A stretch of DNA of 42,363 bases from positions 1 to 42,363 of the forward strand of contig JAICNB010000024.1 in assembly GCA_025928935.1 (NCBI GenBank). Reading direction: 5' to 3'. The notes under the pieces were generated by a model that was given only the letters and a program-made list of their open reading frames with translations, did no database searches and was not told the origin of the DNA. The position numbers were made by a program, and so were the translations under genes. The stretch is from Acidimicrobiia bacterium (GTDB lineage Bacteria; Actinomycetota; Acidimicrobiia; Spongiisociales; ZC4RG35). Below are positions 25,384 through 31,621 of the stretch, piece by piece (the first letter of the stretch is position 1; every line of letters begins with the position of its first letter).

Positions 25384-25389
25384 ACGCTA
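25384..25389 (-). promoter_or_regulatory. -10 element of a candidate leaderless CoA-ligase promoter, overlapping the cbiO stop
   Basis: TAGCGT on the minus strand ends seven bases before the ligase GTG. Its first three bases are the TAG stop of the upstream cbiO gene, so the two genes share DNA while the ligase may be separately transcribed. Confidence 0.4.
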
Positions 25390-26136
25390 CCGGTCCGTTC
25401 CTCCTCGCGGGTCGAACCGGTAGGGGAGCTCGAGACGATGTGCCTTCATGAGGACCTCATCACCGAGGATCTCCACCGTCTCGTCGCCGGCCACGATCGA
25501 CCCCTCGTCCATGACCAGGGCTCGAGGACAGAGTTCGAGGGCGAATGGCAGGTCGTGGGTCACCACCAGTTGGGTGATCGGGAGAGCTCGCAGCACGTCG
25601 ATCAACTCCCGTCTCGAGGCAGGGTCCAGATTGGAGGTCGGCTCATCGAGGACCAGGATCTCGGGCCTCATGGCCAGGACGGTGGCGATGGCGACCCGGC
25701 GTCTCTCCCCGTAACTGAGATGGTGGGGGGCTCGATCGATCGCCTCGAGCATCGACACGGCGCCGAGGGCGTCGGCCACCCTGGAATCGAGCTCCGCCCC
25801 GATCAGACCGAAGTTGGCCGGCCCGAAAGCCACGTCCTGGCCGACCGTGGGCATGAAGAGCTGGTCGTCGGGATCCTGGAACACCAGACCCACCCGTCGC
25901 CGCACTTCCATGGCTGCTTCATCGGACACATCGAGCCCGGCGACCCGCACCGTTCCGGCGTCCGGTCGAAGGATGCCGTTGAGATGGAGGAGCAGGGTCG
26001 TCTTGCCCGCTCCATTCGGGCCGAGCAGTGCGACCCGCTCGCCGTGATGGACATGGAGATCGACGCCACCCAGTGCCCGATGGCCGTCGGGATAGCTGAA
26101 GACGAGCCCGGCGACCTCGAGTGATGGCTCACTCAT
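25387..26136 (-). CDS. cbiO: ECF transporter ATP-binding subunit for nickel/cobalt
   Basis: This 249-residue ABC ATPase has Walker A GPNGAGKT, the Q-loop VFQDPDDQLF with the extended ECF-type pattern, the signature HLSYGERRRVAIA, Walker B ILVLDEPTSNLD and the switch His in VTHD. The LSYGE(R/K)(R/K)R signature is typical of CbiO/NikO. It energises the CbiM/CbiQ importer. The ATG at 26136 overlaps the cbiQ stop (ATGA); a longer frame from 26205 enters cbiQ and is rejected. It is the last gene of the transporter operon. Confidence 0.93.
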   Translation of the reverse strand: MSEPSLEVAGLVFSYPDGHRALGGVDLHVHHGERVALLGPNGAGKTTLLLHLNGILRPDAGTVRVAGLDVSDEAAMEVRRRVGLVFQDPDDQLFMPTVGQDVAFGPANFGLIGAELDSRVADALGAVSMLEAIDRAPHHLSYGERRRVAIATVLAMRPEILVLDEPTSNLDPASRRELIDVLRALPITQLVVTHDLPFALELCPRALVMDEGSIVAGDETVEILGDEVLMKAHRLELPYRFDPRGGTDR

Positions 26137-26852
26137 CGAATCACGGTGACGGAGAGCAAGACGAGGATGGCAGCGGCTGCAGGCACCGACAATCCGATGG
26201 CCCATTCCCGGAGCGAGGCGGGTTGGTCACCGTAGGCAGGCATCCGCCCGGTGAAGCCCCGGGCCACCATCGCCTGGTGGACCCGCTCCCCCCGCTCGTA
26301 CGAGCGGATGAACAACGAGCCGGCGGAATGGGCCAACGGGCCGCCTTGCCACGGCCATCTCGGCTCGTAGCCACGCGAGGCCATGGCCACACGGCGGCGT
26401 GCGAACTCCCCGGCCACGATGTCGAGATACCGCACCATGAACCCGGCGATGGCGGTGATGACCCGTGGGACCCGGATCCGGTCGAGCCCGCGGATGATGT
26501 CGGGGATCGTCGTGGTCGCCGACACCACCACCGACGCACCCACCCCGATGGTTGCCTTGGCGATGATGGTCCAGGCTCCCCACAACCCTTCGACCGAGAG
26601 TGTGAGTCCGAGGACCTGGGTCGTCGGTTCCTGTCCGAAGAAGGGGAGCAGCAGCGCGAAGACGAGGATCGGCACCTCCACCAGCATGCGTCTTGCCACG
26701 AAACCGGCGGGTAGCTCGGCCAGGATCATGACCCCGGCGATCAGGCAACCGGCCAAGGCATGAGCCCAGAACGCCTCCCTGGGTATCGCAACGACTGCGA
26801 TGACGAAGACCAGGAGCGCCACCACCTTTACCTGAGGCGGAAGCCGATGCAC
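26133..26852 (-). CDS. cbiQ: ECF transporter transmembrane subunit for nickel/cobalt
   Basis: This 239-residue integral membrane protein has about five helices and the coupling motifs of EcfT/CbiQ proteins: the Ala-Arg-Gly-like MASRGYEP and MVARGFTGRMP segments, which contact the ATPase grooves. It links CbiM to CbiO. The start is GTG at 26852 with GGAGA six bases upstream. The gene lies 47 bases after cbiM and overlaps cbiO by ATGA. ECF energising subunits can serve several substrates in general, but the dedicated CbiM neighbour and the Nur box point to nickel. Confidence 0.92.
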   Translation of the reverse strand: MHRLPPQVKVVALLVFVIAVVAIPREAFWAHALAGCLIAGVMILAELPAGFVARRMLVEVPILVFALLLPFFGQEPTTQVLGLTLSVEGLWGAWTIIAKATIGVGASVVVSATTTIPDIIRGLDRIRVPRVITAIAGFMVRYLDIVAGEFARRRVAMASRGYEPRWPWQGGPLAHSAGSLFIRSYERGERVHQAMVARGFTGRMPAYGDQPASLREWAIGLSVPAAAAILVLLSVTVIR

Positions 26853-26899
26853 CGGCGTCTCCCCATGCCGATACAGAGCGTGGGCGTGTGCCGTTCCGC

Positions 26900-27886
26900 T
26901 CAGAGCGGTGTCGTGCTCCGCTTTCTCATCATCACGAACGCCCCGACGATTGCGGCACCCACACCGAAGGTGATCAGAACACCGATCAGACCGGAGAGCC
27001 GGGTCCCGGTGGCCTCGTCCTCGACTCCCGACACCCCGTAATCGGCCAAAGGAGACTCGGCCAGGACGTGGTCCTCCGCAGAGTCGGCGAAACCCTGGTC
27101 GATGGCCGCTCGCTCCAGCCCATCGGGCTCCTCCGATGCCAGGGGCGCCACCACCATCACGAGCAGGACGGCTACCGCCAGGCCGGCGGCAGCAAAGCCC
27201 CAGGCTCCGGCCCGGACCTTCTTCTTCTCCTTGTCGAGGAGGTCGAGGTCCTGCACCCCGGCGATCAACTCGGGTCGTGTCGCCGCCGCACCGACCATCG
27301 CCGAGGAGATCAGACCCTCACCGATGCCGATGAGGAAATGGACACCCGCCATGGCTGCGAGCACCGTCGCCACATCGACGTTGCCTCGTCCTCCGAAGGC
27401 GTACTCGATGACGAACGCGATGGAGGACGCAACCACCGAGGCCAGGGCTGCGGTGAAGGTCGACACCAATACCGTGGTCCAGGATCTGGGGAGGATCTTC
27501 ACCATCGTTCGGAACACAACCCAGCCGACGAACCCGGTCACCAGGGCCATGTTGAGAACGTTGGCCCCCAAAGCCGATATCCCGCCATCGGCGAGCAGAA
27601 GAGCCTGGACGATCACAACGACGCTCACGGCGGTGATCCCCAGCCAGGGGCCGACCAGGATGACCGCCAGCGCCCCGCCGAGGAGATGGCCCGACGTGCC
27701 TGCAGCCACCGGGAAGTTGAGCATCTGGAGTGCGAAGATGAACGCGGCGACCAGCCCGGTGAGCGCGATCCGATTGTCCTGGAGATAGGCCCCCGCCCGC
27801 TTGATGGAATACCCGAGGCCACCAGCTGCGACCACAGCGGTGCCGGCCGAGGCGGCCCCGTTCAAGAACCCGTCTGGTATGTGCAA
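26900..27886 (-). CDS. cbiM: CbiM/NikM substrate-binding subunit with C-terminal CbiN-like (PDGLE) part
   Basis: This 328-residue membrane protein is the metal-capturing component. The TTG start at 27886 gives the N-terminus M-H-I-P-D-G-F, the conserved CbiM start in which the amino group and His2 bind the metal. With this start the conserved His in GTSGHLLGG is residue 67, as in NikM. An AAAGGA ribosome-binding site lies six bases upstream. The longer frame to 27916 would bury the metal-binding N-terminus and is rejected. After the CbiM helices come two more helices with the PDGLE motif (EEPDGLERA), so the CbiN-like subunit is fused, as in NikMN. First gene after nur. Confidence 0.93.
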   Translation of the reverse strand: MHIPDGFLNGAASAGTAVVAAGGLGYSIKRAGAYLQDNRIALTGLVAAFIFALQMLNFPVAAGTSGHLLGGALAVILVGPWLGITAVSVVVIVQALLLADGGISALGANVLNMALVTGFVGWVVFRTMVKILPRSWTTVLVSTFTAALASVVASSIAFVIEYAFGGRGNVDVATVLAAMAGVHFLIGIGEGLISSAMVGAAATRPELIAGVQDLDLLDKEKKKVRAGAWGFAAAGLAVAVLLVMVVAPLASEEPDGLERAAIDQGFADSAEDHVLAESPLADYGVSGVEDEATGTRLSGLIGVLITFGVGAAIVGAFVMMRKRSTTPL

Positions 27887-27899
27887 GATCCATCCTTTC

Positions 27900-27916
27900 T
27901 TGCAACCGTGTCGCAA
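27900..27916 (-). promoter_or_regulatory. Nur box (nickel-uptake regulator operator) upstream of cbiM
   Basis: TTGCAA-CCGTG-TCGCAA (plus strand) matches the published Streptomyces Nur box TTGCAA-N5-TTGCAA with one mismatch, and is embedded in a perfect 7-base inverted repeat TTCTTGC (27897-27903)/GCAAGAA (27913-27919). It lies between the nur stop and cbiM, just upstream of the cbiM ribosome-binding site and downstream of a TAGCTA/TACTCT -10-like region, a typical repressor position. Confidence 0.7.
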
Positions 27917-27934
27917 GAAGAGTAGCTAGCCGAC

Positions 27935-28378
27935 TCAGATGTCGTCCAACGCGGCGCAATCGGCGCACAGACCGGAGACGGCGAAATGGTTCAGGTCGGC
28001 AACGAACCCGGTCGAGGCGATGATGGCATCTGCGATGAGATCGGCCTCCTCGCGAGGCAGCGTCATGGTCTGACCGCAATTCCGACAGATGAGATGCTGA
28101 TGCCCCGCGTCCTCGGCGAGGTGATAGACCGAGGGGCCATGACCAAGATGGGAATGGGCGAGCAGGCCGGCGTCCTCCAATGCCTCGAGGGTTCGGTACA
28201 CCGTGGACCGGTCGAGACGTGTGCCGCTGGTCTCACGTGCTCGCTGATAGATGTCGGCCGCGCTGAGGTGCTCGTCATGAGCGGCCGCCACCACCTCACA
28301 AACCGCACGCCGCGCCATCGTGATCCGGTATCCGCGCTCGCCGAGGGCGTCGACGAGCTTGGATGCGGTGATGTGCAC
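27935..28378 (-). CDS. nur: Fur-family regulator, Nur-like (nickel-responsive repressor)
   Basis: This 147-residue protein has an N-terminal winged helix (RLDRSTVYRTLEALEDAGLL) and a C-terminal dimerisation domain with HQHLICRNCG and CADC cysteine pairs. His75 and His77 in AHSHLGHG, together with His131 in LNHFAV, correspond by a constant offset of five to the nickel-site residues His70, His72 and His126 that I recall for Streptomyces Nur. A Nur box lies just downstream before cbiM, and the next genes encode a nickel/cobalt ECF importer. Under nickel sufficiency it should repress the importer. The GTG start at 28378 has TAGCCT six bases upstream. Zur or a cobalt regulator is the alternative. 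Confidence 0.8.
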   Translation of the reverse strand: MHITASKLVDALGERGYRITMARRAVCEVVAAAHDEHLSAADIYQRARETSGTRLDRSTVYRTLEALEDAGLLAHSHLGHGPSVYHLAEDAGHQHLICRNCGQTMTLPREEADLIADAIIASTGFVADLNHFAVSGLCADCAALDDI

Positions 28379-29345: not shown

Positions 29346-30428
29346 ATGGACCCTGATCTCTACTACGGGGGCTACCTCAAGCTGGACAAGCTCCTCGACG
29401 CCCAGGACCTGGAGAGCACCAAGGCCGGGGACACTGTGCATGACGAGATGCTTTTCATCGTGGTCCATCAGGCGTACGAGCTCTGGTTCAAGCAGATCCT
29501 ATGGGAGCTCGACGAGGTGAGGCGCATCTTCGGCCTGGGCACGGTCGACGAAGCCGACATGGGAACCGCGGTGTCCCTGCTGCGCCGTGTCGTCGAGATC
29601 CAGAAGCTCTTGGTCCAGCAGGTGAGCGTGCTGGAGACGATGACCCCTCTGGATTTTCTCGACTTCAGAGACCACCTTTTCCCCGCCTCGGGTTTCCAAT
29701 CGGCCCAGTTCCGCCTGGTGGAGAACAAGCTCGGTCTTCGTGTCGAGGACCGTCTCAAGCTCGGTGGCTCGCCCTACACCTCCCGATTCAATCCGGAGGA
29801 CCGTGACCTGGTCACACGGAGCGAGGTCGAGCCATCCTTGTTCGATCTGGTGGAAGGCTGGCTGGAGCGGACCCCGTTCCTCGACTTCGAGGACTTCTCG
29901 TTTCGCGCGGCCTTCCAGGATGCGGTAAAGCGCCGGCTCGAAGCCGACCGGGCGATCGTCGAGTCCAACCCGAGGCTGTCCGACCTAGAGAAGGCAGCCC
30001 AACTCAAGGACTTCGAGGTCACTTTCGAGCAGTACGAGGCGGTCTTCGACCCGGTCAAGCACGCCGAGCAGCAGGCCGCGGGCAGGCTACGTATGTCCCA
30101 TCGCGCCTTCCAGGCTGCCTTGTTCATCACCCTCTACCGGGACCAGCCCGCCCTCCAGGAGCCATTCCGGCTTCTCGAGCACTTGATGGACATCGATGAG
30201 GGCTTCACCGTGTGGCGTTACCGCCACGCCCAGATGGTCCTCCGCATGATCGGGCGCCGGATCGGGACCGGTGGCTCGGCCGGAGCCAAGTACCTGGAGC
30301 GCTCGGCGGAGCGGAGCCGCGTCTTCGGGGATCTGTACAACCTGTCCACGTTCCTCATCCCCAGGGCCGACCGGCCGCCCCTGCCCGATGGGATCACCGA
30401 GTCCATGCGATTCAAGTACGAGGGATGA
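29346..30428 (+). CDS. kynA: Tryptophan 2,3-dioxygenase
   Basis: This 360-residue heme enzyme opens the indole ring of L-tryptophan to N-formylkynurenine. Landmarks are YGGYLKLDKLLDAQ, the active-site His41 in FIVVHQAYELWFKQILWEL, FQSAQFRLVENKLG with the substrate Arg, the heme-ligand His in VWRYRHAQMVLRMIG and the GTGGSAGAKYL substrate loop. The length is longer than the ~280-residue Xanthomonas type and closer to the animal type. ATG at 29346 removes an unrelated N-terminal extension of the open frame. It is coupled by ATGA to a kynureninase-like gene. No kynurenine formamidase is present in the window. Confidence 0.95.
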   Translation: MDPDLYYGGYLKLDKLLDAQDLESTKAGDTVHDEMLFIVVHQAYELWFKQILWELDEVRRIFGLGTVDEADMGTAVSLLRRVVEIQKLLVQQVSVLETMTPLDFLDFRDHLFPASGFQSAQFRLVENKLGLRVEDRLKLGGSPYTSRFNPEDRDLVTRSEVEPSLFDLVEGWLERTPFLDFEDFSFRAAFQDAVKRRLEADRAIVESNPRLSDLEKAAQLKDFEVTFEQYEAVFDPVKHAEQQAAGRLRMSHRAFQAALFITLYRDQPALQEPFRLLEHLMDIDEGFTVWRYRHAQMVLRMIGRRIGTGGSAGAKYLERSAERSRVFGDLYNLSTFLIPRADRPPLPDGITESMRFKYEG

Positions 30429-31621
30429 ACCTCAAGCCCCACTTCTCCCGGTTCCTGGAGGCCGGGCCCGGCCCAGCGGGAGTCTGGAGGTCGCTTCCTG
30501 GATCTGAACGTCTTCATTTCGCAGCCCACTCTCATCATCCCTGGCCCGATGTCTCATTCGGTGCTCATCAGCAGGCGTGGCTCGACGCGGCAGCGATGAT
30601 GGACGACAAGTGGGACCACGTGTTCGGTGAGCTCATCCCGACCACACGCAGCCAGATTGCCCGTGTCCTCGGGCTGGCCGACCCATCGACGATGACCTTT
30701 GGCCCCAACACCCACTCCTTCCTGATGCGCATCTTCTCCTGCCTGGACCCGCCGGTGCGCGTTCTCTCCACCGACGCCGAGTTCCACTCGTTCAACCGGC
30801 AATCCCGCCGTTGGGAGGAGGCCGGGCTGGCCATCGTCGACCGCATCCCCACCGAGCCGTTCGACACCTTTCCCGAGCGTCTCACCCGTGAGGCCAGGGC
30901 CGGCGCCCACGATTTGATATATCTCAGCCAGGTCCTGTTCGACTCGGGGCTGCGGCTGGACGGGCTGGACCAGATCGTGTCCTCGGTCCCGGAGAACCGG
31001 ACCTTTATCGTCATCGACGGATATCACGCATTCATGGCCTTGCCGGTGAGCCTCGGGGCCATCCAGGATCGAGTCTTCTTCCTGGCTGGTGGTTACAAAT
31101 ACGCCATGTCCGGTGAGGGAGCCTGTTTCCTCCACTCCCCTGCCGGATACGGGCCTCGGCCGGTGGACACCGGCTGGTATGCGGGCTTCGGCCAGTTGGA
31201 GACGGGCGTCGGAAAGGAGGTCACCTACGGCTCCGACGGTTCTCGGTTCTCCGGGGCCACCTTCGACCCCTCAGGTGTCTACCGGATGAATGCGGTCCTG
31301 GGGTGGCTGGAGACGGAGGGGATCACCCCGGTCGAGATCCACCGTCATGTCCTCGATCTGCAAGAGCGATTCCTGGCCGGGGCGCCCGATCTGGGTGAGC
31401 TCCTAATCACGGACCCCGACCGCCGCGGGAACTTCCTCACATTCAGGTCGAGTACCGCGGCCGACCGCTACACGGCCCTCCATCAGCGCGGGGTGGTGAC
31501 CGACTACAGGGGTGATCGACTTCGGATCGGCTTCGGGATCTATCACGACGAGTCCGACGTCGACCGTCTCCTCGAGCATGTCCACGAAATTGGGACCGCC
31601 AGGTCCCGTATACGACGCTGA
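30425..31621 (+). CDS. kynU: Kynureninase-like PLP-dependent (aminotransferase class V) enzyme
   Basis: This 398-residue fold-type I PLP enzyme has Asp198 and His201 in VIDGYHAFMALP for cofactor binding and Lys225 in FFLAGGYKYAMSGEGACF as the Schiff-base lysine. The fold matches the class V/kynureninase group, and the ATGA overlap with tryptophan 2,3-dioxygenase strongly suggests kynurenine (or 3-hydroxykynurenine) cleavage to anthranilate (or 3-hydroxyanthranilate) and alanine. The N-terminal ERLHFAAHSHHPWPD differs from classical kynureninases, so it is a divergent member; another beta-cleavage or transamination role is possible. It ends 20 bases before the convergent RidA gene. Confidence 0.7.
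   Translation: MNLKPHFSRFLEAGPGPAGVWRSLPGSERLHFAAHSHHPWPDVSFGAHQQAWLDAAAMMDDKWDHVFGELIPTTRSQIARVLGLADPSTMTFGPNTHSFLMRIFSCLDPPVRVLSTDAEFHSFNRQSRRWEEAGLAIVDRIPTEPFDTFPERLTREARAGAHDLIYLSQVLFDSGLRLDGLDQIVSSVPENRTFIVIDGYHAFMALPVSLGAIQDRVFFLAGGYKYAMSGEGACFLHSPAGYGPRPVDTGWYAGFGQLETGVGKEVTYGSDGSRFSGATFDPSGVYRMNAVLGWLETEGITPVEIHRHVLDLQERFLAGAPDLGELLITDPDRRGNFLTFRSSTAADRYTALHQRGVVTDYRGDRLRIGFGIYHDESDVDRLLEHVHEIGTARSRIRR

Follow-up and report, generated by a model that had tools for sequence, protein, structure and literature searches.

In Streptomyces, nikABCDE and sodF are under the control of the Fur-family regulator Nur (PMC7055735), and the energy-coupling factor (ECF) transporters of the NikMNQO (nickel) and CbiMNQO (cobalt) types have homologous M, Q and O components. 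Here we describe a locus that appears to bring a Nur-type regulator and an ECF transporter together, on a contig of 42,363 nucleotides (JAICNB010000024.1; our contig C117) from an Acidimicrobiia bacterium (assembly GCA_025928935.1; our G000, 3.08 Mb in 144 contigs). The whole contig was analysed and is called the window below. On its minus strand a Fur-family gene is followed, after a 48-bp gap, by cbiM, cbiQ and cbiO, and we consider it quite probable that this is a self-contained nickel-uptake circuit—a Nur-type regulator, a palindromic operator and an ECF importer—that chiefly serves a nickel superoxide dismutase (Ni-SOD).

The host regulator resembles Nur of S. coelicolor (3eyy) in its Fur fold, its HxHLGHG motif, its C-terminal nickel-site histidine, an operator of the TTGCAA-N5-TTGCAA type and its predicted control of a nickel importer. 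It differs in that its target would be an ECF importer rather than nikABCDE, no sodF was found in the host for it to control, its gene adjoins its target whereas that of S. coelicolor adjoins ygfZ, and one presumed M-site histidine is replaced. The importer, for its part, is like NikMNQO in its M, Q and O components and in having PDGLE, a small membrane domain, joined to M, but its genes match cobalt-named models and a (predicted) Fur-family regulator takes the place of NikR; it is homologous in M, Q and O to CbiMNQO, but the host shows no Pfam CbiN, no riboswitch in the window and no corrin-synthesis markers. We take the locus to hold a further Nur-type circuit of the known sort, but its predicted ECF target is one that we did not find described for Nur in the open literature: our search there, with most subscription papers outside it, returned no paper that connects Nur with CbiMQO. 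In a survey of how nickel and cobalt are used, 13 actinobacterial CbiM/NikM systems have no assigned metal, none is assigned to nickel and Nur is not mentioned (PMC2667541). A Nur operator ahead of cbiM offers a sequence-based route to assigning nickel.

The operator and the module it precedes

An earlier note on this DNA had placed a Nur box with one mismatch between the regulator gene and cbiM, and we found it there: TTGCAACCGTGTCGCAA at 27900-27916 (plus strand) departs by 1 mismatch from the published Nur-box consensus, TTGCAA-N5-TTGCAA. On the minus strand, where the genes lie, the operator reads TTGCGACACGGTTGCAA and sits inside a longer palindrome, TTC-TTGCGA-N5-TTGCAA-GAA (27897-27919); the full palindrome, TTCTTGCGA-N5-TTGCAAGAA, exceeds the box first described. 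The core box ends 13 nt upstream of the cbiM start codon and begins 2 bases past TACTCT (27919-27924, minus strand), a -10-like hexamer and putative promoter element; a TANNNT resembling it stands at or near the same place in most class-A loci. A scan of the locus found neither a consensus sigma-70 promoter nor a terminator, so the position of the cbiM promoter is one that we infer.

Within the window, a scan at up to 3 mismatches gave 2 matches against 2.65 expected from shuffles, i.e., no enrichment. Genome-wide, 27900-27916 is the only site with at most 1 mismatch in all 3.08 Mb; at up to 2 mismatches there are 11 sites, and the reversed-pattern control also yields 11. Because the control count is equal, the remaining 2-mismatch boxes look like chance, and we dismissed them as real sites; the search for further Nur boxes that the earlier note had proposed thus produced none as good as this one.

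We found cbiM in 17 of 34 genomes of the family (one weak match was left out), and the palindrome lies no more than ~60 bp from the start in 15/15 family cbiM genes with upstream sequence (the other two loci, G017 and G031, fall outside the count, the contig being cut there) as well as ahead of cbiM in one further Acidimicrobiia record (L126). Orthologous loci therefore keep the box, the opposite of what the earlier note had named as damaging to its own proposal. When promoters were aligned (15 rows: 14 from the family plus L126), 8 of the 12 half-site positions were invariant, two were conserved in 14/15 and two were almost wholly purine or pyrimidine; sequence was near random in the spacer and in the DNA more than 3 bases upstream. 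The family operator has the approximate form TTR-TTGCRA-N5-TYGCAA-WAR, and its outer palindrome bases covary in some rows (TTC/GAA in the host, G000; TTG/CAA in G030). A 60-bp stretch would hold a match with up to 2 mismatches by chance with a probability of no more than 0.0037, which is an upper bound because the pool contains real sites. Across the family, exact TTGCRA-N5-TYGCAA occurs at 18 sites, 12 of them ahead of cbiM, against 8 for the control. The host's second exact site (contig C25) is not near cbiM or any Fur gene, and no Nur box with up to 2 mismatches was found near 20 family Ni-SOD (sodN) loci; because of these two results, the operator search suggests that the regulator would have a single target in the host.

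The regulator gene (27935-28378, minus strand; 147 aa, GTG start; Pfam FUR 1.4e-24) has as the closest named record to its locus that of Acidimicrobiia bacterium isolate TY_ISSM_2_bin.47, at 91% identity. Next comes cbiM (26900-27886, minus strand; 328 aa), which encodes a CbiM/NikM S component with a fused PDGLE domain (Pfam CbiM 1.5e-51, PDGLE 1.9e-17); its start codon is TTG at 27886-27884, in agreement with orthologues, its protein begins MHIPDGF, and a ribosome-binding-site-like AAAGGA can be read ahead of it at 27893-27898 (minus strand). The ECF transmembrane coupling component is encoded by cbiQ (26133-26852, minus strand; TIGR02454 ECF_T_CbiQ above cut-off, Pfam CbiQ 2e-28) and the ECF ATPase by cbiO (25387-26136, minus strand; TIGR01166 cbiO above cut-off, ABC_tran 7.7e-33), so that Pfam and NCBIfam searches find M, Q and O together in one operon. 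The claim that all this forms one module holds, but the interval given for it (26900-28378) takes in the regulator and cbiM only; since cbiQ and cbiO continue on the same strand after cbiM, the module spans ~25387-28378.

The regulator and the proposed circuit

Among PDB entries, the regulator's sequence matches S. coelicolor Nur (3eyy) best (6e-27; the runner-up is at 1.7e-16), and 3eyy is also the top fold match of its AlphaFold model (predicted local distance difference test score 81; E 6.2e-11, template-modelling (TM) score 0.61-0.66), with other Fur proteins ranking behind it at similar TM-scores. Nearest to Nur by both measures, it is most likely a Nur-type Fur protein. His75, His77 and His131 align, as had been claimed, with His70, His72 and His126 of 3eyy, which we take to be the nickel-site residues of S. 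coelicolor Nur, and they are invariant in 10 relatives of the regulator; further, His37, His93 and His95 match three of the four presumed Nur M-site ligands.

In the circuit that we propose, where binding, nickel specificity, repression, promoter position and transport substrate are all what we infer, a nickel-bound regulator dimer would occupy the palindrome just upstream of cbiM when nickel is sufficient, covering the likely transcription start and blocking transcription of cbiM-cbiQ-cbiO. When nickel becomes scarce, the dimer would leave and repression would be lifted, so that the ECF importer (the CbiM S component with its fused PDGLE domain, the CbiQ T component and the CbiO ATPase) could refill the nickel supply, chiefly for Ni-SOD.

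Metal demand and competing explanations

Ni-SOD was found in 32 of 34 family genomes, including the host, whose copy passes the TIGR02753 cut-off and adjoins a maturation-protease-like gene (the protease match lies below its family cut-off). Fe/Mn-SOD was found in 0/34 family genomes by a search that was positive in 12 of 14 control genomes and that did not cover Cu/Zn-SOD. Because Ni-SOD is nearly universal and Fe/Mn-SOD was not detected, nickel supply may limit oxygen defence in this family. Of the other nickel enzymes that the earlier note had thought worth seeking, urease (alpha subunit) and NiFe-hydrogenase gave no match in the host. In the hook of the host Ni-SOD (L061, G000:C118), HCDLFCGVY, a Phe takes the place of the Pro that is presumably usual there, and the nickel ligands are kept.

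Demand for cobalt is less apparent. Among corrin-synthesis markers (CbiK and CbiX were not searched), CbiC was found in 0/34 family genomes and CobN in 1/34, the host not being the one. The window contains no cobalamin riboswitch, and we rejected cobalamin-riboswitch control of cbiMQO on that ground; one sub-threshold match lies elsewhere in the host genome. Taken together, the presence of Ni-SOD, the missing corrin markers, the lack of a riboswitch in the window and a separate Zur-like gene in the host favour nickel over cobalt or zinc, and the cbiMQO operon labelled “cobalt” most likely imports nickel for Ni-SOD. The nickel-repressed nickel import put forward in the earlier note is thus supported by the conserved box, Ni-SOD and the missing corrin markers, with nickel specificity a prediction still; its view that the “cobalt” annotation is probably wrong is well supported, yet it too is a prediction.

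Several observations weigh against a nickel circuit of this kind. Half of the family has Ni-SOD without cbiM, and other nickel routes must therefore exist. The equivalent of His86 in the four-His M site is Ala91 in the regulator (Nur-like proteins of Streptosporangiaceae likewise carry Ala there), and the tree gives no support to a clade with Streptomyces Nur but does not reject it either (p-value of the approximately unbiased test 0.19). The metal ligands of CbiM do not tell nickel from cobalt. According to a review, crystallisation may have produced the three-His nickel site of Nur as an artefact (PMC7055735), so the matching of histidines alone is no proof of nickel sensing. Nor does the box alone prove nickel, because the same operator adjoins Fur paralogues without nickel-site histidines: six family genomes (G016, G018, G020, G029, G032, G033; L204-L209) have cbiMQO and a same-type operator divergent from a different Fur paralogue (class B) that lacks them.

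What these points leave room for differs from one alternative to the next. A mixed nickel and cobalt importer under a Nur-type nickel sensor, bringing in some cobalt for non-corrin uses, seems to us improbable: ECF systems of this kind are hard to tie to one metal, as the 13 unassigned actinobacterial systems illustrate (PMC2667541), but the regulator retains the nickel-site histidines, and the markers tested show no cobalt demand, nitrile hydratase, NiCoT, glyoxalase I and non-corrin cobalt enzymes not being among those searched.

A little less probable again is that the operon imports cobalt as annotated, for cobalamin synthesis, under a Fur protein that responds to cobalt. Either metal can be bound by S components of the CbiM type, and the family names CbiM, CbiQ and CbiO, like the NCBIfam models that the genes match, are “cobalt” names. 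The C-terminal domain of CbiM, however, matches PDGLE and not Pfam CbiN (NCBIfam models named CbiN give weak matches, below cut-off), and CbiM is closer to 4m5b/4m58 (8e-20), the latter presumably NikM2, than to the cobalt CbiM 5x3x (4e-12); the sparse corrin markers and the window without a cobalamin riboswitch argue in the same direction.

Finally, we regard it as highly improbable that the regulator is a Fur paralogue for zinc or iron that lies beside cbiM by accident. The breadth of the Fur family, the missing M-site histidine and the class-B paralogues that adjoin the same operator without the nickel site speak for this reading. Against it, Nur is by far the best sequence match and also first by fold, a Zur-like paralogue with a different palindrome upstream, TAATGATTCTCATTA, occurs separately in the host (beside an ATP-binding cassette (ABC) ATPase gene), and the adjacency of regulator and cbiM recurs in Acidimicrobiia and Chloroflexota.

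Fur paralogues and operator variants in relatives

In Dehalococcoidia and Limnocylindria (Chloroflexota), Nur-like genes adjoin cbiM, and palindromes of the TTGCAA-N4-TTGCAA type, with a spacer one base shorter, lie upstream of the regulator; they are exact ahead of the nur-cbiM operons at four loci (L160, L179, L188 and L203) and have 1 mismatch at L156, L176, L185, L194 and L195. The Nur-like genes of Streptomyces and its relatives, by comparison, are not beside cbiM within the stretches examined.

The class-B loci bring up a further, tentative idea, which we think possible but rather doubtful: the operator before cbiMQO would be the conserved unit, and the protein that reads it would have been swapped in evolution, being Nur with nickel-site histidines in some genera and elsewhere a different Fur paralogue without them, which would sense nickel by another metal site. 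An operator common to two Fur subfamilies makes the origin of nickel sensing in the Fur fold testable.

Some smaller observations on these loci may be added. In G016, G029 and G033 a Zur-like gene and an ABC ATPase gene lie on the far side of the locus. A Nur-like gene occurs without a cbiM match at L018, L020, L021, L023, L024 and L028 (G021, G023, G022, G014, G015 and G028, respectively). On a Dehalococcoidia contig, an exact TTGCAA-N5-TTGCAA (L148:484-500) lies 58 bp ahead of a Nur-like gene, and the downstream genes look FmdE-like and metal-ABC-like (named by eye). Elsewhere in the window, at 29346-31621 (plus strand), a tryptophan 2,3-dioxygenase gene is followed by one for a kynureninase-like pyridoxal phosphate enzyme; the two belong to a pathway of tryptophan degradation.
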